Source of the DNA: a virus
DNA: 26,104 nucleotides
Strand: one strand, 5' to 3'
Virus record (IMG/VR): IMGVR_UViG_3300045926_000180
Location: 1 to 26,104 of that record
Positions 863 to 25,348 of the stretch are shown piece by piece; position 1 is the first letter of the stretch, and every line of letters begins with the position of its first letter. Below the pieces are notes generated by a model, which saw only the letters and a list, made by a program, of their open reading frames with translations, searched no databases and was not told the origin of the DNA. Position numbers and translations under genes: made by a program.

Positions 863-1129
863 ATGCCGACAGCGAGCAATGTCCTCTGCGGGTGTGGTCG
901 ACTGATGCGGGTCCTGCGGAACTCCGTCACCGTCGAGGAGCTGCTCGAGGACGGCGCCCCCTACCGGCTCTGGGATGCCGATCTGTACCTCTGTGACGAT
1001 TGCGGCTCGGAAGTGATCACCGGCTTCGGCCGCGCGCCGTTCGCCGAGCACTGGCAGCCGGACTACGCCGACACGCGCGAGCGCCTGGCGCCGATCTATC
1101 CGGCGCGCTGCCGGGAAGAGGCCTCGTGA
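863..1129 (+). CDS. Small cysteine-containing (zinc-ribbon-like) phage protein (88 aa)
   Basis: Not recognised at family level. Cysteine pairs CGC (residues 9-11) and CDDC (about 44-47) bracket the sequence and could bind one zinc ion. The middle has LWDADLYLCDDCGSEV followed by an aromatic PFAEHWQPDY stretch. Similar short proteins are common in phage early regions, with unknown roles. GGAAGG lies upstream of ATG 863. The stop TGA at 1127-1129 shares a base with the ATG of the next gene (TGATG), so translation is probably coupled. Zinc binding is inferred from cysteine spacing only. Confidence 0.65.
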   Translation: MPTASNVLCGCGRLMRVLRNSVTVEELLEDGAPYRLWDADLYLCDDCGSEVITGFGRAPFAEHWQPDYADTRERLAPIYPARCREEAS

Positions 1130-1362: not shown

Positions 1363-1619
1363 TGCGGATCGGCCCCGTCCTCGTCGTCGATTCGTGGTTC
1401 ATCGAAGGGCCGAAGGCCCTGCAGAGCCACTACATCATCGACGTCCAGCCGCCGCAGCCGCCCTGGGCGCCGCGCACCCGGCTGATCACCCGCGACCGCG
1501 GCCTCTACTCCGACTGCCTCGGCGTCGAAGGTCTGAAAATTCCCGTGCTGATCGGTTTCTCCCGCGTCGGCGATCAGAACGTCCTCGAGTGGGTCGAGCT
1601 GGCGGAGAAGGACTCGTGA
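1362..1619 (+). CDS. Hypothetical protein (85 aa)
   Basis: GTG start at 1362 overlaps the previous TAG stop by one base. The protein alternates hydrophobic and polar residues (MRIGPVLVVDSWFIEG, then HYIIDVQPPQPPWAP) and looks like a small mixed alpha/beta fold. No membrane segment, no cysteine cluster, no known motif. GC-rich third positions agree with real coding. The stop overlaps the next GTG (GTGA at 1616). Function not recognised. Confidence 0.6.
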   Translation: MRIGPVLVVDSWFIEGPKALQSHYIIDVQPPQPPWAPRTRLITRDRGLYSDCLGVEGLKIPVLIGFSRVGDQNVLEWVELAEKDS

Positions 1620-1864
1620 GACGCGCGCGCTGCTGGTGGTGCGGCTGGCCGCGGCAGAAACCCGGCGCCGTGGTCCGGCACGCGCCGGACTGTGTGCTGC
1701 TCTCGGGCGTGCCGGATCAGCGAACGTTCGAGTGGGACAGAAACAAAACGGAACACAACGATGGCCCGAACAACAGCAGCACTCGTGCGGCGCAGCGACG
1801 ATCTCGAACCCTATGCAGCGCGGATCAATCAAGCGCTGGGGAAGACTGTCGAGGCGATCTTTGA
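1616..1864 (+). CDS. Small zinc-finger-like protein running into the next gene (83 aa)
   Basis: GTG at 1616 overlaps the previous stop as GTGA and has AGAAGGA three bases upstream. The first 45 residues look real: CWWCGWP (Cys-x2-Cys), then HAPDC (His-x3-Cys), which could form a small zinc knuckle, with GC-rich third positions. From about base 1738 the codons become AT-richer and the reading frame overlaps the DUF3102-like gene (start 1761) by 104 bases. This tail (asparagine/serine/arginine-rich) is probably not original. The gene may have lost its own 3' end where the lower-GC cassette joined. It could also be spurious. Confidence 0.4.
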   Translation: MRRARCWWCGWPRQKPGAVVRHAPDCVLLSGVPDQRTFEWDRNKTEHNDGPNNSSTRAAQRRSRTLCSADQSSAGEDCRGDL

Positions 1865-2357
1865 AACCGGGCGCTTGCTGCTCGAGGCGCGCGACAAGCT
1901 CGAACACGGCAAGTGGGAGCGGCTGTTTGCAGAAGGCCGCGTACCGATCTCCGTTGCGACGGCGCGGAAGTTTATCGAAATCTACAAACGGCGCGAGATG
2001 CTGACAAATCGTTCCGATCGGAACGATTTGCCGCCGTCATGGACGATTCTGTACGCCCTCGCTCGCTTGCCTGATGACACGCTCGCCTGGGCACACGAAC
2101 AGAAAAAGATCACGGCCGATCTTGAAACAAAAGATGTTGCGCGCCTGCGATCGGAATACGACGGCGCCGAGTTGCCTTCATCCCAACCTGCTAACGCGCC
2201 AATAGGCGCACGAACTCCCGGGTCAGAACTCGTAACGAAGATCGAACGGCTTCTCAACGGGACCATCGAGAAGCTCTCACCCGACGATCGCGATTACGTC
2301 GTGTGCATGTTGCGCGAAACGCTCGAACGTCTCGTCACCAAAGGGGAGGCCTCGTAA
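1761..2357 (+). CDS. DUF3102-like protein (198 aa)
   Basis: Residues 20-75 show the DUF3102-type pattern seen in phage and plasmid proteins: INQALGKTVEAIFETGRLLLEA, then EHGKWERLF and SVATARKFIEI. The family is found on mobile elements, often with a helix-turn-helix-like fold, and its role is not settled. The C-terminal 50 residues (ELVTKIERLLNGTIEKL, YVVCMLRETLERLV) form predicted helices. ATG 1761 is preferred over an in-frame ATG at 1692 because the upstream extension is cysteine/arginine-rich and lies in another gene. The base composition is visibly lower in GC than its neighbours on the left. It ends one base before the GHKL ATPase gene, so the two are almost certainly one transcription unit. 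A 26-bp palindrome lies inside (2005-2030). Confidence 0.75.
   Translation: MARTTAALVRRSDDLEPYAARINQALGKTVEAIFETGRLLLEARDKLEHGKWERLFAEGRVPISVATARKFIEIYKRREMLTNRSDRNDLPPSWTILYALARLPDDTLAWAHEQKKITADLETKDVARLRSEYDGAELPSSQPANAPIGARTPGSELVTKIERLLNGTIEKLSPDDRDYVVCMLRETLERLVTKGEAS
2005..2030. repeat. Perfect 26-bp palindrome inside the DUF3102-like gene
   Basis: The sequence reads CAAATCGTTCC-GATC-GGAACGATTTG and equals its own reverse complement over all 26 bases. It encodes part of an asparagine/arginine/aspartate-rich linker. Its core, GTTCCG facing CGGAAC, recurs in the 24-bp palindrome at 8415-8438. Confidence 0.95.
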
Positions 2358-3755
2358 ATGGATATCCGACCCAAGACGCATCTGATCGAATCGATCCGAC
2401 ACGACAAACAGAACTGGTCGATCCTGCTGGCCGAGGCGATCGACAACGCCCTCGACGCCGGGGCGCGTCATGTCGCCATCGCGGTCACGGGATCGCGCGT
2501 CGAGATCGCGGACGATGGCGAAGGGATCACCAGGGCTCGCGAAAAGGCGATCGTGCGATTCGGCGACCATCAGCCGATGGCGACGACCGCCCTCGGCCGC
2601 TATGGGATCGGGTTCAAGTACAACGCGGTCAACGCGAGCGATCGGTTTCTCGTTGAGAGTAGTTCGCGTGATGGCCGCATGCGCCTGGTCGTCGAGAGTT
2701 GGACGCGGCTGAGTCAAAGCGGCGAATGGGAAATCCCTGATCCGTTGTGGCAATCCTTGCGGGTCACTGGCGCGCCGACCGGAACAACGATCATCCTCGA
2801 GCGCCTCCGATGGAAGGAACCCCGCGAGCGGGAACTACTGCGGGCACGCGAGGAATTAACCCGAATGTTCAATCCGGCCCTCATGGCCGGCGTTGCGGTC
2901 GTGGTCAACCGCAGCGACCTCCAGCCGATTCAGGAACCGGAACTCTCCGACGCAATCGACACCGTTGTCCATTTGACGGACGGGAAGTCGGCGCACGTGC
3001 GCGCGGGATACCTCGTCATGCCAGGGCGGATTCACCACGTCGATGTGTCCTATAAGCATCGAGTGATCGAGAAGGAATCTACATTCGGATGCGATGACTA
3101 TAGCGGCCTCAGCCGATTGTTTGCACGCGTCGAACTCAGCGGTCCGTGGGTCTTGAGTCGGTTCAAGGACGAACTCCTCGATGCCGACCGCGAGAATCTT
3201 GAGTCGGCTGTGCTCGAGATCCTGACGCCGATCCTCGAGAAGTGTCACAGCGCGCAACTCGATTTGAACGTCGATCAGATGACCGGCCTACTCAATGACA
3301 TGTTGCCGCTAGAACTTCAGAACACGCGACCGAAGCGGACCGCTCCATCACGACCGTCGCAGACGTCACGTCGGAGACGCCCGCATGGCGAGACACGGGA
3401 CGCGCCGCCCGCGCCCAACGGACCGACACGTCAACTACAAAGTCCTCAACGGAAACTCCTGATTGCGTTCGAGGACCGACTGTCCGACGAGTACGGCTAT
3501 GGACAAGTGAAGGGAGGTAAACCAGATCGCATCGAGCTCGCGCGCGATAACCCAGACATTCAGCGATGGCTGTCGTTCCGCGACAAGGACGAGGGCAAGC
3601 GGGCACTCTACGCCGTCGCAATAGCACTCTACGAGCACTTCAAGGAAACGACTCAACGACAAATCAGTCTCGAATTTGCAAATGAACCCTTCGGCCGTCG
3701 GGTCTGGCTCACTCGGCAGCGGCAACCGATCGACGTTGAAGAAAAGGGAGCTTGA
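2358..3755 (+). CDS. GHKL-fold ATPase, MORC/HSP90-like (465 aa)
   Basis: The N-terminal 150 residues carry all Bergerat-fold ATP-binding motifs: N box EAIDNALDAGA (residues 26-36, with Glu26 and Asn30), G1 box ADDGEGI (51-57), G2 box LGRYGIGFK (79-87) and a G3-like GTTIIL (142-147). GRYGIGFK is closest to MORC and related HATPase_c_3 proteins; MutL and gyrase differ there. No histidine-kinase H box and no recognisable MutL C-terminal domain are seen. Residues about 150-320 may be a transducer-like region. A basic proline-rich linker (about 325-365) precedes a C-terminal domain (about 370-455, FEDRLSDEYGYGQV to RRVWLTRQ) that I do not recognise. It starts directly after the DUF3102-like stop and shares its lower GC. 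ATP binding is well supported. The biological role (recombination, DNA clamp, or defence/anti-defence) is not shown by the sequence. Confidence 0.8.
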   Translation: MDIRPKTHLIESIRHDKQNWSILLAEAIDNALDAGARHVAIAVTGSRVEIADDGEGITRAREKAIVRFGDHQPMATTALGRYGIGFKYNAVNASDRFLVESSSRDGRMRLVVESWTRLSQSGEWEIPDPLWQSLRVTGAPTGTTIILERLRWKEPRERELLRAREELTRMFNPALMAGVAVVVNRSDLQPIQEPELSDAIDTVVHLTDGKSAHVRAGYLVMPGRIHHVDVSYKHRVIEKESTFGCDDYSGLSRLFARVELSGPWVLSRFKDELLDADRENLESAVLEILTPILEKCHSAQLDLNVDQMTGLLNDMLPLELQNTRPKRTAPSRPSQTSRRRRPHGETRDAPPAPNGPTRQLQSPQRKLLIAFEDRLSDEYGYGQVKGGKPDRIELARDNPDIQRWLSFRDKDEGKRALYAVAIALYEHFKETTQRQISLEFANEPFGRRVWLTRQRQPIDVEEKGA

Positions 3756-3760
3756 TTCCA

Positions 3761-4639
3761 ATGACGATCGACGCGCCCGGCATCTACGACATGCCCGCCG
3801 CGGCCTACCATGCCGACCCCTGCCCCGCGCCGTCCCTCTCCTGCTCGATCGCGGTGAAGCTGTGCCAGGCGTCGCCGGCGCACGCCCGCGCCGCGCATCC
3901 GCGCCTGACCCCGGACGCCGTCGAGGAGAAGGCCGAGGCCTTTGATCTGGGCACCGTCGCGCACGCGCTCTTGCTCGAGGGCAGCGATGCCCGCGTCGCG
4001 GTGATCGACGCCAAGGACTTTCGGACGAAAGCCGCGCAGGAGGCGCGGGACGCCGCCTACGCCGCCGGCCAGTGTCCGATCCTCGCGGCGCGCTGGACCG
4101 ACGTCCAGGCGATGGTCGCCGCCGCGCGCGGCCAGCTCGATGCCCACCGCGACGGCGGGCGCGCGATGTTCACCAGCGGCAAGCCGGAGCAGACCGTGAT
4201 CTGGCAGGAGGCCGGCGGCGTCTGGTGCCGCGCGCGGCTCGACTATCTGCGGCTGGCGGCCGACGGGCCGGCCGTCGACGACTACAAGACCACCAGCGGC
4301 TCGGCGAACCCGGAACACTGGAGCCGATCGCTCTTCGACCGCGGCGGCGATCTGCAGGCGGCCTGGTACCGGCGCGCCGTCCTGCACGTCACCGGCGTCG
4401 AGCCGACGTTTCGCTACGCGGTGCAGGAGACGTTTCCGCCCTACGCGCTGTCGGTGATCAGCCTCGGGCCCGACGCGCTGCTCCTGGCCGAGAAGAAGTG
4501 TCTCTACGCGCTCGAGCAGTGGACGCGCTGCCTGGCGCGCAACGAGTGGCCGTCGTATCCGCGCGAGACGGCCTACGCCGGCCTGCCGCCGTGGGAAGAG
4601 GCGCGCTGGCTCGAGCGCGAGCTGCGGGAGGCGTCGTAG
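3761..4639 (+). CDS. PD-(D/E)XK nuclease, RecE/exonuclease VIII-like (292 aa)
   Basis: The RecB/Cas4/RecE nuclease fold is visible in order: GTVAH (His68), EQTVIW (Glu143), RARLDYL (Asp161), VDDYKTT (Asp174-Lys176) and QAAWYRRAV (Gln199), the usual motif set for metal-dependent DNA exonucleases. The N-terminus (GIYDMPAAAYHADP, then SLSCSIAVKL) matches the phage DUF3799/exodeoxyribonuclease 8 type. It probably resects double-stranded ends to give single strands for annealing, acting with the RecA-fold protein at 6028. ATG 3761 is chosen because AAGGGAG at 3744-3750 lies ten bases upstream. A TTG at 3752 overlaps the previous stop but is only one base from that site. GC content is high again, unlike the two genes before it. 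Confidence 0.85.
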   Translation: MTIDAPGIYDMPAAAYHADPCPAPSLSCSIAVKLCQASPAHARAAHPRLTPDAVEEKAEAFDLGTVAHALLLEGSDARVAVIDAKDFRTKAAQEARDAAYAAGQCPILAARWTDVQAMVAAARGQLDAHRDGGRAMFTSGKPEQTVIWQEAGGVWCRARLDYLRLAADGPAVDDYKTTSGSANPEHWSRSLFDRGGDLQAAWYRRAVLHVTGVEPTFRYAVQETFPPYALSVISLGPDALLLAEKKCLYALEQWTRCLARNEWPSYPRETAYAGLPPWEEARWLERELREAS

Positions 4640-4651
4640 CCATGAAGCGCA

Positions 4652-4675
4652 CAGGCAGGCAGGCAGGCAGGCAGG
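4652..4675. repeat. Tetranucleotide microsatellite (CAGG)x6
   Basis: Six perfect CAGG units run from 4652 to 4675. The last unit, extended to CAGGG, supplies the AGGG Shine-Dalgarno sequence eight bases before ATG 4685. Slippage would change the number of AGG ribosome-binding options upstream of the winged-helix gene. Confidence 0.95.
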
Positions 4676-5337: not shown

Positions 5338-5538
5338 ATGAGCACCGTCGACCCAAACGTCTACGACCTGGCCGAGCGCTTCGTCGACGACGCCCTCGCC
5401 GAGGCGCCGCGCGCGGTGTCGGACGTCCAGCGCCTCACCTACATCCACCGCGTCGCCGAGGCGCTGCAGCGCGCCATCGAAGGCGAGTGCAGCGTCATCG
5501 AGGCCGAGCTCCTGGAGGCGTCACATGAGCGGCGTTAA
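5338..5538 (+). CDS. Hypothetical helical protein (66 aa)
   Basis: Starts at ATG 5338 (a GTG at 5335 is also possible) with a short GAGG at 5329-5332. The product is acidic and almost wholly helical (VYDLAERFVDDALAEAPRAV, then YIHRVAEALQRAIEGE), with no cysteine and no membrane segment. It overlaps the HNH gene that follows by 14 bases. Function not recognised. The good third-position GC bias supports it. Confidence 0.55.
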   Translation: MSTVDPNVYDLAERFVDDALAEAPRAVSDVQRLTYIHRVAEALQRAIEGECSVIEAELLEASHERR

Positions 5539-6031
5539 GGGACACGGGAATCCGAACGGCCGGCCGAAGCACGGGCATTCGCCAGGCAGCGGATGGAGCG
5601 AGACCTACGCCTCGTGGGTGAACATGCACTCCCGCTGTCGGTATTCGACACAGAAAGGGTTTCGCTACTGCGGCGCGAAGGGCATTCAGGTGTGCGAGCG
5701 CTGGCAGACCTTCGAGCACTTCCTGGCAGACATGGGGCCGCGTCCCTCTCGGGCGCATTCGCTCGATCGCATTCGACGGGACGAGCACTACGGGCCGGGC
5801 AACTGTCGATGGGCGACGCGACGAGAGCAGGACCGGAATAAGCAGCAGACGGTTCTCGTCACGATCGGGAACCGCACCATGTGCGCCACGGATTGGGCGC
5901 TTGAGAACGGCCTTCGGCCATCAACGGTCTTGGCTCGCATCTACAAGCTGGGATGGGATCCCGTTCTTGCCGTGAGTACCCCGGCCACGCATCGGCGTCG
6001 CCTCTACCTGCACGGCGAAAGGATCGCGTGA
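5525..6031 (+). CDS. HNH-like free-standing endonuclease (168 aa)
   Basis: Matches a common phage family with the pattern W-x2-M-x2-RC, YCGAKGIQVCERW, F-x2-FLADMG-x-RP, SLDRIRRDEHYGPGNCRWAT and REQDRNK. These are HNH-superfamily nucleases related to homing endonucleases. Here the set is complete: MHSRC near residues 35-39, VCERWQTFEHFLADMG near 56-71, and the His-Asp-Asn active-site region from SLDR to NCRW. A C-terminal segment (CATDWALENGLRPSTVLARI) looks like a helix-turn-helix or NUMOD-type DNA-binding module. The base composition is lower in GC than the flanks, fitting a mobile gene. It starts at ATG 5525 inside the previous gene and ends with GTGA overlapping the NTPase gene. No intron is apparent. 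Confidence 0.75.
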   Translation: MSGVKGHGNPNGRPKHGHSPGSGWSETYASWVNMHSRCRYSTQKGFRYCGAKGIQVCERWQTFEHFLADMGPRPSRAHSLDRIRRDEHYGPGNCRWATRREQDRNKQQTVLVTIGNRTMCATDWALENGLRPSTVLARIYKLGWDPVLAVSTPATHRRRLYLHGERIA

Positions 6032-7319: not shown

Positions 7320-7907
7320 ATGGCGCTGAGCGTTCGTACGCGGTTTGAGATTTTCAAACGTGACGATTTTACGTGCCGGTACTGCGGTCGTCGGTCGCCG
7401 GAAGTGGTGCTCGAGATTGACCATGTCCTCCCTCTGTGCGAGGGCGGATCGGATGACGAGATGAACCTGTTGACCTCGTGCTGGGAGTGCAACCGAGGCA
7501 AGTCGGGGATCCCGCTGGCGCTGATCATGACCGGCGAAGACCCACACGATCGTGCGATCGAGTTGCTGGAACGCGAGCGGCAATTGAGTGAATACAACCG
7601 CCTGATTGCCCATGAGCGACAACAGCGAGAGGAGAAGGCATGGGAGTTGTGGCGCTACTGGCAACGGGCGCGTGGCTTGAAGGCCAAGAAGGAGTTGAAC
7701 ACCGTGCCGCGGTTCGAGTGGGGATGGTTGCTGAGGGCGTTGACGTACTGCCCCCTCGAACAGATTCGGATCTTCATGGATCTGGCGCTCGAGAAAGGGC
7801 TGCACCGGAACCTGCGGTACGTGGGCGGATGCGTCCGGAACTGGCGATACGAGTACCAGGCGAACAAGGACTTTGGGCGCGACGATGTGCTGCCGGGGAG
7901 GGAGTAA
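7320..7907 (+). CDS. HNH endonuclease with extra C-terminal domain (195 aa)
   Basis: A canonical HNH nuclease domain fills residues 1-65: RFEIFKRDDFTCRYCG (Cys19, Cys22), LEIDHVLPL (Asp34-His35), then NLLTSCWECNRGKS (Asn49, Cys54, Cys57, Asn58, Lys61). The four cysteines bind the structural zinc and His35 is the expected general base. Residues 70-125 are a charged helical segment (ELLERERQLSEYNRLIAHER). The remainder (FEWGWLLRALTYCPLEQIRI) is an aromatic helical domain not recognised. AGGAGG at 7308-7313 lies six bases before ATG 7320. The GC content is lower than that of the neighbours. It may be a mobile endonuclease or a replication-associated nuclease. Confidence 0.8.
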   Translation: MALSVRTRFEIFKRDDFTCRYCGRRSPEVVLEIDHVLPLCEGGSDDEMNLLTSCWECNRGKSGIPLALIMTGEDPHDRAIELLERERQLSEYNRLIAHERQQREEKAWELWRYWQRARGLKAKKELNTVPRFEWGWLLRALTYCPLEQIRIFMDLALEKGLHRNLRYVGGCVRNWRYEYQANKDFGRDDVLPGRE

Positions 7908-7915
7908 CAGGGACT

Positions 7916-8542
7916 ATGGCGGACGATCGGTTGTTTCATCGGCGGCTCGGCCAGGGCGATCGCGTCAACCAACTGACGCCGCTCGAAGAGATCGCGTGGT
8001 ACGCCTACATTCTGGCCGCCGACGACTTCAGCGTGCTGCCGTTTGACGCGCTGGAACTGCAGCGCATGCACCGGCGGCTGCACGCCTGCACGCACGCCGT
8101 CGTGCAGCGCATGTTCGCCACGATCTTCGACGTCGGGCTGATCCGCCTGTTCGAACATCAGCGCCGTGTCTACTGCTATCAGCCGGACTGGCAGGACTGG
8201 CAAAAGATCCGCTACGCCTTTCGCACGATCTACCCGCCGATTCCGGCGGCCATCCTCCCGCAGTGCACCCGCGCGACGCAGTGGTTGTGGACGGTCTGGC
8301 CCGGCGGCGGGCGAAATTCGAAGCTGAAGCAATGGGAGCCGCCGGCGACCTGGACGGCGCCGGACTGGGCCGTGCTGCGACCAGATGAGCCGCGGAACGG
8401 GTCCGGACCGGTGGCGGACCCGTTCCGGAACGGGTCCGGACCTCGCGCGCGCGGGCGCGACGCGCGCGTAGTCAATAGCATTGGCATTGACCCCCCGGAG
8501 GTACTACCAGCAACCAGCTCTAAACAGGGGCGCACGTGCTGA
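7916..8542 (+). CDS. Replication-initiator-like phage protein (208 aa)
   Basis: The N-terminal 125 residues resemble phage proteins placed near replication genes: LFHRRLGQGDRVNQLTPLEE, AWYAYILAADDFSVLPF, FATIFDVGLIRLFE and YQPDWQDWQKIRY. Together these suggest a winged-helix replisome-organiser domain. The similarity is judged by pattern, so the assignment is tentative. ATG 7916 is used; it follows the HNH stop by eight bases with AGGGA close upstream. The C-terminal 50 residues are low-complexity and contain RNGSGP twice, encoded by the repeats at 8394-8442. An origin inside the initiator gene, as in lambda, would fit. The protein ends in a Cys residue just past a GGAGGTACT repeat (8497-8505). 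Confidence 0.5.
   Translation: MADDRLFHRRLGQGDRVNQLTPLEEIAWYAYILAADDFSVLPFDALELQRMHRRLHACTHAVVQRMFATIFDVGLIRLFEHQRRVYCYQPDWQDWQKIRYAFRTIYPPIPAAILPQCTRATQWLWTVWPGGGRNSKLKQWEPPATWTAPDWAVLRPDEPRNGSGPVADPFRNGSGPRARGRDARVVNSIGIDPPEVLPATSSKQGRTC
8394..8442. repeat. Interleaved direct and inverted repeats with a 24-bp palindrome
   Basis: GGAACGGGTCCGGACC occurs at 8394-8409 and again at 8427-8442. Between them GGACCCGTTCC (8416-8426) is the inverse of the shared 11-mer, giving a hairpin with 8394-8404 (11-base loop) and, with the second copy, a perfect palindrome at 8415-8438 with no spacer. The array lies in the 3' part of the replication-like gene. Confidence 0.95.
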
Positions 8543-19719: not shown

Positions 19720-20019
19720 ATGAGCCGGCACGGATCTCACGGGTGGCGGGACGTCCCGCCACCCTGTCCCGTCGACGACACGCCGTTCACGGCGTGCACC
19801 CCCGAGTCCGTCGCGCGGCAGCGCCTGGCCGGGCCGGTCGCGGCGGACACGGCGCCGTGCGTCACCGTGGTTCGCGTCAACCCGCCGCAGGTGTTGACGC
19901 AGTGCCGTCCGACATCACCGCCCGATCCGGGCCGCGAGACGTTCACGACGAAGACGTACCGCGGCAAGCACCCGAAGCCCGAGAGGCGGCTGCCGCCCCA
20001 CGGCCATTCGCACCGATGA
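19720..20019 (+). CDS. Hypothetical small protein after the capsid gene (99 aa)
   Basis: ATG 19720 follows the capsid stop by eight bases with AAGGA at the stop itself. The product is proline- and histidine-rich (GWRDVPPPCPVDDTPFTACT, then VTVVRVNPPQVLTQ) with four cysteines and a basic tail (HPKPERRLPPHGHSHR). It looks disordered, like small head decoration or completion proteins, but no family is recognised. The stop overlaps the next start as ATGA. Translation of this frame is supported by position only. Confidence 0.5.
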   Translation: MSRHGSHGWRDVPPPCPVDDTPFTACTPESVARQRLAGPVAADTAPCVTVVRVNPPQVLTQCRPTSPPDPGRETFTTKTYRGKHPKPERRLPPHGHSHR

Positions 20020-23290: not shown

Positions 23291-25348
23291 ATGCTCACCG
23301 GCACCTTCCTGGCGGACTTTCAGTCGTTCTTCTACGCGACGCAGAAGGCCGAAGCCGGCCTCGAGTCGATGAAGAAGGAGTCGCTCGCCACCGAGAAGCA
23401 GATCGACAAAATGGTCGAACGGTTCCGCGGCGATCGGGTCGTGGCCGAGGCCGCGGCCATGGCCGAGGCGATCGATCGCCTCGGCGACAAGGCCGACCTC
23501 ACGGAGAAGGAGCTCGCGCAGGTCGCGTCGAAGGCGACCGAGGCCGCGTCGAAGCTCAAGGCGATGGGCGCCGACGTGCCCGAGAACATCCAGAAGTACG
23601 CGACGGCCGCCGGCGGCGCGACCACCGCGACCGCGGGCTTGACGAAGGGCGTCATGTCGCTCGCGGGCGCGTTCGGCGTCGCGTTCACCGCCGACGCGGT
23701 CATCGGCGGCATCGTGAACTTTACCAAAGGGCTGTTCCAGAGCGCCGATGCCCTCGTGAAAGTCTCGGACCAGACCGGCATGACGATCGAGCAGGTCCAG
23801 CGGCTGTCCTACGTCGCCAACCAGAGCGGGACCACGTTCGACGCGATGTCGAACGCGGTCGGCAAGCTCCAAGGGAGCCTGGACGACGCCAAGATTCAGC
23901 AGACGCTGCGCGAGATTGGCATCAGCGTCGACGAGTTCGCGCGGTCGGGTGCCTACGAACAGACCGAGATGCTGGCCGACGCGATCGGCCAGATTCCCGA
24001 CCCGGCCGATCGCGCGCGCGTCGCCATGGACCTGTGGGGCAAGAGCGGCCGCGAAATGCTGCCGGCGATGACGCAGGGCTTCAAAGACCTCGCCGCGGAG
24101 GCGACCGTCGCCAGCGAGGCGACCGTCCGCACGCTGGAGGCCGCCGGCGACGCGATCGATCGGTGGAAGACGAAGATCAAGAACGCCGCGACCGAAGGCC
24201 TCGGCTCGTTTCTCCTCGCCGCCGAACAGTTGGGCAACATGGACTTGTCGGAGGCGTTCAAAGTGGCGCTCGCCTCGGGCAGCATGAGCCAATTCTTGTT
24301 AACCCTGAAGGAAATCAAGCTCGCGAAGGATGACCTGAAGAAGGACGTGGCCCTGCCGTATGAGGGTCCGCAGACGCTCGACATGGGTGGGTTCTCCGAC
24401 GAGGAGAAGAAACAGATCAACGACGCCTACACCGCCTATCAGAAAGTCGTCGCCGCGCAAAAAGAACTGACCGAGGCCGGGCGCGGGTGGGACGCGCTTC
24501 TCGCGAGCGTCACGCCCAAGCAACAGGAGCAGATCCGGCAGTACACCGAGATGGGCGTGGCGCAGCAGACGATCGCCACCGCCCTCGAGGTGACCGCGCG
24601 CCAGGTCGAGGCCGTGGTGCGCGCGCGGCAGCAGGAGGCCGCGGCGACGAAGATCGTGCAGGACGCCGCGCAGGCGCACCACACCGCGCAGATTGACGCG
24701 GTGGCCACGCAGGAGCAAAAGCAGATGCTCGCGATCGGCACCTGGCGCGCCACGCAGATGAAGGCGCTCGCCGACTCGGGCGCCGCGACCGCCGAGCACT
24801 ACGACGCCATCGACGCCCTCTATACGCAGAAGCTGCAGGAGCAGAACGACGCACAAGCCGCGGCGTTGGCGAAGCGCACGGGCGCGTCGCAGGCGGCGCT
24901 GGACCAGGAGGCCGCGGCGTTTCAGCGCGAGACGGACGCGATGGTGGCCGCCTACATCGACATGCAGTACGGCGCCGGCGCCGCGCTCGATTCGGTCGCG
25001 GCCAAGACGCGCGAGGTCACCGTGGCCACCGTGCAATTGAACACCGCGCTCGGCGCCAACAAGAGCGCGTGGGAGTCGGTCGCCGCCGGGCACGAGTTGA
25101 TGAACGCCTACCGCGGCGCGGGCGTCGCCATGGGGTCGCAACTGGCGATGGGAGGCTACAACCAGTCGATGCGGATGCGCGCCGGGATTCCCACGTCGCA
25201 GGACGTGTTCGGGTTGACTCCGGGGGCGCCTGGCGGTGGCGCGTGGGGCAACCAGAACACGCTGACCGTCAACGTGAACAACGCCGACGCGACGCAGATC
25301 GCCGACAAGTTGGTGCGCGAGATGAAGCACCAGGGCGTGCGGCTCTGA
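23291..25348 (+). CDS. Tail tape measure protein (685 aa)
   Basis: The longest gene, right after the chaperones. It begins ATG 23291, one base after the fusion stop. Residues 1-110 are helical and lysine/glutamate-rich (TQKAEAGLESMKKESLATEK). A hydrophobic region at about 120-155 (TKGVMSLAGAFGVAFTADAV, IGGIVNFTKGLFQ) is expected for membrane insertion on DNA entry. Residues 160-620 contain repeated alanine/glutamine-rich helices (AAAKTKEVTVATVQL-like). The tail end NTLTVNVNNADATQIADKLV is a common terminal motif. By the usual rule of about 1.5 angstrom per residue, the tail would be near 100 nm. Confidence 0.92.
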   Translation: MLTGTFLADFQSFFYATQKAEAGLESMKKESLATEKQIDKMVERFRGDRVVAEAAAMAEAIDRLGDKADLTEKELAQVASKATEAASKLKAMGADVPENIQKYATAAGGATTATAGLTKGVMSLAGAFGVAFTADAVIGGIVNFTKGLFQSADALVKVSDQTGMTIEQVQRLSYVANQSGTTFDAMSNAVGKLQGSLDDAKIQQTLREIGISVDEFARSGAYEQTEMLADAIGQIPDPADRARVAMDLWGKSGREMLPAMTQGFKDLAAEATVASEATVRTLEAAGDAIDRWKTKIKNAATEGLGSFLLAAEQLGNMDLSEAFKVALASGSMSQFLLTLKEIKLAKDDLKKDVALPYEGPQTLDMGGFSDEEKKQINDAYTAYQKVVAAQKELTEAGRGWDALLASVTPKQQEQIRQYTEMGVAQQTIATALEVTARQVEAVVRARQQEAAATKIVQDAAQAHHTAQIDAVATQEQKQMLAIGTWRATQMKALADSGAATAEHYDAIDALYTQKLQEQNDAQAAALAKRTGASQAALDQEAAAFQRETDAMVAAYIDMQYGAGAALDSVAAKTREVTVATVQLNTALGANKSAWESVAAGHELMNAYRGAGVAMGSQLAMGGYNQSMRMRAGIPTSQDVFGLTPGAPGGGAWGNQNTLTVNVNNADATQIADKLVREMKHQGVRL

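Follow-up and report, generated by a model that had tools for sequence, protein, structure and literature searches.

Two abutting genes in the early region of a phage may form a swappable DNA-clamp module, a reading to which we give a probability of about 45%. The window, the whole stretch of DNA analysed here, is a virus record of 26,104 nt from IMG/VR in which terminase, portal, S49 protease and capsid genes were recognised, with repressor-like and excisionase-like genes at its left end. The first gene of the pair (1761-2357, plus strand) encodes a DUF3102 protein of 198 aa, a putative site-specific DNA-binding partner that is all-helical in prediction. The second (2358-3755, plus strand) encodes a MORC-like GHKL ATPase of 465 aa, consisting of a GHKL domain, an S5 transducer, a long helix, a basic proline-rich linker and a C-terminal domain.

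A swappable cassette

A preliminary description, made from the sequence alone, had proposed a gapless, low-GC pair of a DUF3102-like protein and a GHKL ATPase, and each element of this was borne out. Both proteins are matched in Pfam, to DUF3102 (PF11300, E 1.5e-5; 25.7 bits, gathering cut-off 24.4) and HATPase_c_3 (E 4.6e-13), and there is zero gap between the DUF3102 stop at 2357 and the GHKL ATG at 2358. The DUF3102 start is placed at ATG 1761 by alignment with the proteins of L005 and L007; a longer start at GTG 1692 had no support from relatives. GC content is 59.5% in the pair and 67.9% in the window, the lowest-GC other 2-kb stretch among those tested lying to the right of 3755 (64.5%), and GC3 is 0.66 and 0.70 in the two genes compared with about 0.82-0.94 in most flanking genes. 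Import cannot be proved from composition alone, because two HNH endonuclease genes (5525-6031 and 7320-7907), which are likely homing-type insertions, are also somewhat low in GC, notably the second. The same description had a small zinc-finger-like ORF overwritten at its 3' end from about 1738. The ORF exists (GTG 1616, stop 1864), the overwriting was not confirmed, and no homologue with an original 3' end was found; the single similar ORF, in L015 (CxWCG...HAPDC, 83 aa), has another location and another tail. At the left end of the window, positions 1-92 and 298-389 form an exact 92-nt inverted repeat beginning at contig base 1, which resembles a fold-back artefact that amplification or assembly would leave at a contig end.

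The flanks of the pair are shared with phages that lack it. On the left, a small Cys-rich gene (863-1129, plus strand) is common to relatives with and without the pair, at nucleotide identities of 75% (L090), 70% (L091) and 76% (L015). The right anchor is an ExoVIII/RecE-like PDDEXK exonuclease (3761-4639, plus strand; phrog_412, E 2e-64), with 81-82% identity to its counterparts in the phage contigs L090-L093, all four without the pair. Six tandem CAGG units just past this gene (4652-4675) are a possible slippage site. In the stretches examined, a DUF3102 or GHKL ORF was absent from all 15 exonuclease relatives. The right edge is sharp, with DNA homology restarting at the exonuclease ATG, 3761, in L091 and at 3764 in L090. 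Leftward, homology to L090, the nearest relative, is regained at the Cys-rich gene (863-1134), and because it stops at 1134 the replaced segment may extend left beyond about 1738. Two of the four close relatives carry other genes in the slot: L090 has an N6/N4 DNA methylase together with a 191-aa protein that matches no family, and L091 has a DUF5131 protein directly upstream of the exonuclease.

Other phages carry the pair between different flanks, in the order RecT-YqaJ-small gene-DUF3102-GHKL (L005 and L015/L007). The window DUF3102 protein is 61% identical to those of L005 (residues 4-138) and L007 (residues 5-134), and the ATPase just 28-30% identical to those of L005 and L015/L007. In these phages too the pair is the low-GC part, most clearly the DUF3102 gene. 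The pair therefore is a swappable cassette, as had been suggested, and low GC travels with it; related phages all carrying the pair at normal composition, an outcome named beforehand as a refutation, were not what we found.

The ATPase family and its two kinds of partner

The Bergerat motifs listed in the preliminary description, EAIDN, DDGEG and GRYGIGFK, are all present. EAIDN (2433-2447, plus strand) contains E26, the putative catalytic base, and N30, a putative Mg ligand; E26, D29 and N30 are each kept in 17 of 18 sequences of the family alignment. W264 and the transducer lysine K270 (3165-3167, plus strand), a putative gamma-phosphate finger, are invariant (18/18), and DDGxG and GRYGIGxK are conserved across the family, while a KD conserved in relatives is KY in the window ATPase. 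The whole length of the ATPase aligns, including a small alpha/beta domain at the C-terminus (residues ~366-440; 3453-3677, plus strand) that is found in all full-length members. In the AF2 model this domain has strands at 368-395 and helices at 399-432 (pLDDT about 62-80 for residues 371-430), the GHKL model as a whole being of moderate confidence only (pLDDT 65.5). The earlier statement that there is no known C-terminal effector holds, with the qualification that the last ~100 aa are a family-conserved domain: no database match was obtained, and a sequence search of solved chains gave no relative, housekeeping or otherwise, while the fold comparison barely covered this domain. For the family profile the best solved chain was MORC2 (3.6e-8), followed by MutL (2.5e-7). 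By fold (VIA Z, residues 1-315) MORC3 (16.9), MORC2 (16.1), topo VI-B (16.1) and GyrB (15.8) are tied.

Relatives were collected with the pattern LGRYGIGxKxA, which gave 11 phage stretches, and with a looser pattern, which gave nine more; all 11 of the former hold ATPase relatives, full-length where the contig permits. Scans of viral contigs with the GHKL protein (single-protein and first two-row) gave no match, as exact peptide words cannot pick up so divergent a family. The first scan of genome contigs was empty, and the second gave one family member (L020) together with distant GHKLs, which served as controls. At E 1e-25 the family occurred in one of 1186 sampled genomes from three phyla, on a 3.3-kb contig. 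The view that the family is mostly phage-borne is provisional, since scoring was limited to the top few candidates of each genome and part of the survey had no positive control. In the tree the window ATPase sits on a long branch and its placement is unsure; a single clade of DUF3102-paired ATPases has no support.

The neighbour of the ATPase follows a rule that the preliminary description missed. Counting loci whose abutting gene falls inside the contig (those of L011, L018 and L109 are truncated), the ATPase is abutted by a ParB/Noc-like gene in 14 (gp95-96 of Mycobacterium phage Bobby, L010, L012, L013, L014, L020, L106, L107, L110, L111, L112, L116, L117 and L118), or 16 if the duplicate contigs L017 and L019 are counted. 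In three phages, the window, L005 and L015, the abutting gene is DUF3102, so that the DUF3102-GHKL pair recurs outside the window. In L009, whose ATPase is truncated by the contig end, the upstream gene is a different one, of 222 aa. The loci are not independent, falling into eight lineages at about 60% identity; DUF3102 is the partner in two of these and ParB in six. The loci from a later scan fit the rule in 8/8 cases, with a ParB profile built from the earlier loci, and only L112 (E 2.8e-18) is a new lineage. Within the pair-carrying loci there is no other ParB-like match, and no locus has both partner types. We inspected 68 distant chromosomal GHKL loci to about 8 kb on either side, as far as the contigs reached, and none has a ParB-like or DUF3102 neighbour. 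Gene order varies, with ParB downstream of the ATPase in L010, L014 and L111 and upstream elsewhere.

The ParB assignment rests on a profile of these partners that matched the structures of Noc (1.9e-12), ParB (5.6e-11) and Spo0J (1.2e-10); the same search returned pentatricopeptide rows, without any stretch passing alone. The nucleotide-binding motif columns G49/R52 and N82/R85 are conserved, and the L010 and L014 partners match ParB-like PHROG families. The DUF3102 model is helical throughout at low to moderate confidence, and Foldseek against the PDB gave no match under E 0.3. DUF3102 was considered as a degenerate ParB, for which there is no sequence support (hhalign probability 0.4%, from only 4 rows) and weak fold support (Z 4.3-5.0 to ParB/Noc). 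A C-terminal helical hairpin shared by DUF3102 and ParB as a docking element was rejected, because shuffled sequence does at least as well as the DUF3102 tails. The role of DUF3102 is therefore argued from its position beside the ATPase. Most DUF3102 genes outside the pair-carrying phages have no known tie to GHKL. Since Mycobacterium phage DeadP (L003, gp51-gp52) and L008 carry palindrome-bearing copies with no GHKL gene adjacent, DUF3102 may act with other partners too. The gene that follows DUF3102 in these two phages is ParB-like by eye, gp52 having no significant Pfam match.

Palindromes inside the partner genes

A perfect 26-bp palindrome, CAAATCGTTCCGATCGGAACGATTTG, lies within the DUF3102 coding sequence (2005-2030) and is a candidate self-recognised, parS-like site; it too was missed in the earlier reading. 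It has no repeat elsewhere in the window within 5 mismatches. A lone palindrome is unremarkable in the window, because there are three further perfect ones of 24 bp (8415-8438, 19741-19764 and 23462-23485), and conservation is what counts. The comparison covered 31 DUF3102 genes taken from phages, from Pseudomonadota genomes and, through a third search, from one more genome, and in 15 of them the best palindrome is centred at one common alignment column. Choosing the best site per gene inflates the pairing, not the shared position. The 15 aligned palindromes have the ends AAAT or AAAA ... ATTT or TTTT around variable cores, for example CGTTCCGA, CGTGGCAA, GTTTCACC, CCCGCACC and ACGGATAC, each with a matching complement. 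Across the 13 distinct sites, 144 of 156 cells are paired, against a mean of 94 and a maximum of 125 when arms were shuffled between genes (0/5000). When synonymous codons were redrawn the observed score was rarely reached (P < 0.00005 for the window; P <= 0.0007 in 14/15 genes; 0.012 in L128), and therefore the nucleic acid itself seems to be under selection, in addition to the encoded peptide. Roughly half of the family has no such site; there 8-9 of 12 positions are paired, as in most background ORFs.

The ParB-type partner genes show a weaker pattern, the best palindrome falling in one column in 8/14. Seven of those eight sites come from one lineage, with ends GGT/TGT...ACC, and the eighth from the unrelated L010 (11 of 12 paired). 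In total 77/96 cells are paired compared with 59 on shuffling, where 5/5000 shuffles reach the observed value, and the central pair is not conserved. Three Pseudomonadota DUF3102 genes (L125, L127 and L141) carry the palindromes TGTTTCAC-CG-GTGAAACA and TGTTTCCC-CG-GGGAAACA, which we take to resemble the canonical parS, TGTTTCACGTGAAACA, with two additional central bases. A parS site inside the spo0J gene is a precedent for such a location.

Proposed function and comparison with known systems

The module has recombination and replication-initiation genes as neighbours, which points to phage DNA handling more than to host defence. RecT and YqaJ lie upstream of the pair in L005 and L015, YqaJ is near it in L010, L011 and L014, and a Sak4-like gene in L110; the context in the window includes the ExoVIII and AAA_24 genes. 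A replication initiator is the next gene after the pair in L005 and L117. ParB is a CTP-gated clamp that loads at parS (PMC12704722), and MORC2 is an ATP-dependent DNA clamp that compacts DNA (PMC12216690). Analogy with ParB acting at parS suggests that the first protein (DUF3102 in the window, ParB/Noc-like in most relatives) would bind a palindromic site, often one within its own gene. We conjecture that it would then recruit or load a dimer of the GHKL ATPase onto phage DNA, around which the N-terminal gate would close on ATP. Such a clamp could hold or organise early phage DNA beside the recombination and replication-initiation machinery. With variable cores, each protein-site pair would be private, a property to be expected if such elements encounter one another in the same cell.

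The preliminary description had left a choice between defence, anti-defence and a DNA clamp, of which gene context and ParB-like partners favour the clamp; the defence-model libraries searched gave no membership-level match for the pair. An anti-defence or exclusion-resistance factor like T4 rIIA/rIIB, the ATPase shielding phage DNA or blocking host or prophage exclusion, is unlikely. RIIA proteins do recur among matches to predicted viral structures (BFVD, E 4.5e-10 and weaker), but these proteins are of 618-1049 aa, the matches cover the GHKL/transducer part only (TMq 0.35-0.40), and topoisomerases and Hsp90 match as well. The cassette-like presence of the pair would suit an arms-race gene. 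Also in favour of this account, the slot in L090 holds the methylase and the 191-aa protein, and ParB-methylase fusions are enriched in prophages, with an anti-defence role suggested (PMC12704722). Least probable of the accounts considered is prophage-borne defence, in which the pair would guard a lysogen against infection by other phages, as further defence systems with a GHKL component do. The window is possibly temperate, given its repressor- and excisionase-like genes, and weak matches to MzaB (PADLOC 7.6e-7; NCBIfam 4.4e-10) and BbrUII suggest an ATPase ancestry shared with defence proteins. Those scores are, however, far under the cut-offs (38.5/850 bits for MzaB in NCBIfam, and 26.3/550 bits) and concern the ATPase part only, neither gene yielded a nuclease, helicase or toxin domain, and the rarity of the family in the sampled genomes, on the best few candidates per genome, also speaks against it.

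The palindrome might instead form an RNA hairpin through which translation of the operon is tuned, with DUF3102 an early-gene regulator exerting KorB-like repression and not a clamp loader, an account that we consider improbable. RNA spanning 1995-2040 has a folding energy of -20.9 kcal/mol (z -4.5), the partner is of the helical or HTH type, and KorB controls genes over long distances by means of CTP binding (PMC12704722). Against this, the search for a known RNA-binding domain was negative, and in the DUF3102 genes pairs 11 and 12, the innermost ones and of no use to a hairpin loop, are paired in 13/13 and 10/13 sites. This retention of the innermost pairs favours a DNA dyad site over an RNA hairpin.

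If the clamp reading is true, this compact phage module would be a small, testable model of how MORC-like clamps get targeted, and the pair could be how these phages mark and hold their own DNA during copying and recombination. The covarying palindrome is a concrete candidate binding site, and may help to explain DUF3102, a name seldom met in the literature searched. In eukaryotes, MORC ATPases take part in chromatin silencing and compaction. Their prokaryotic MORC-like counterparts have been reported chiefly in the company of helicases and nucleases (PMC2292703). GHKL proteins of the rIIA type count as a counter-defence that is little understood (PMC7824862), and the ParB proteins of phages are known as orphans or as parts of fusions (PMC12704722). 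The literature searched, with subscription papers and preprints outside it, held no account of a ParB-GHKL or DUF3102-GHKL pair and no paper combining 'GHKL ATPase', 'ParB' and 'phage', and a 2025 survey of the ParB fold makes no mention of GHKL, MORC or HATPase. The pairing thus seems to be undescribed, and there is a fair chance that the module is its own kind.

Among known systems, T4 rIIA-rIIB is, like the window pair, a two-gene arrangement. It shares with the window a GHKL ATPase in a phage early region, but the similarity seen in BFVD is confined to the GHKL/transducer fold, and at 465 aa the window ATPase is shorter than the RIIA proteins among its matches; no gene resembling rIIB was noticed. 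MzaB of the MZA system is a distant relative of the ATPase domain, and no other MZA gene was recognised beside the window ATPase. MORC and prokaryotic MORC proteins (paraMORC1-5; PMC2292703) share the GHKL domain and S5 transducer, intact ATP motifs and the basic finger K270, and of the solved structures MORC2 and MORC3 come closest by profile and belong to the best fold matches. A full match to the MORC signature GhXhhpXXRhl occurs only in L012/L019; the Arg of the signature is invariant, other relatives have 1-3 deviations and the window sequence, HVDVSYKHRVI, has 3. Restriction-type operons of MORC and paraMORC have a superfamily II helicase and a nuclease or methylase as neighbours, whereas those in the window are DUF3102 and ExoVIII, and the phage-early-region location and distinct C-terminal domain also set the module apart. 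L111 is the one relative found to resemble such operons, with a SNF2-type helicase and an N6/N4 methylase (L111 2968-5300) 0.6 kb downstream of its ParB-GHKL pair. With ParB/Noc/Spo0J and their parS or NBS sites, most partners share the fold (E down to 2e-12) and a similar palindromic site, although the window partner, DUF3102, has no demonstrable homology to them; the neighbour here is a GHKL ATPase, with no ParA or SMC gene noticed beside the partner. Tentatively, the module may represent an undescribed class of mobile phage DNA-organising system, in which a ParB-fold or DUF3102 partner, often with a diversifying, private and centromere-like palindrome in its own gene, would load a MORC-type GHKL clamp and not act through ParA or SMC.
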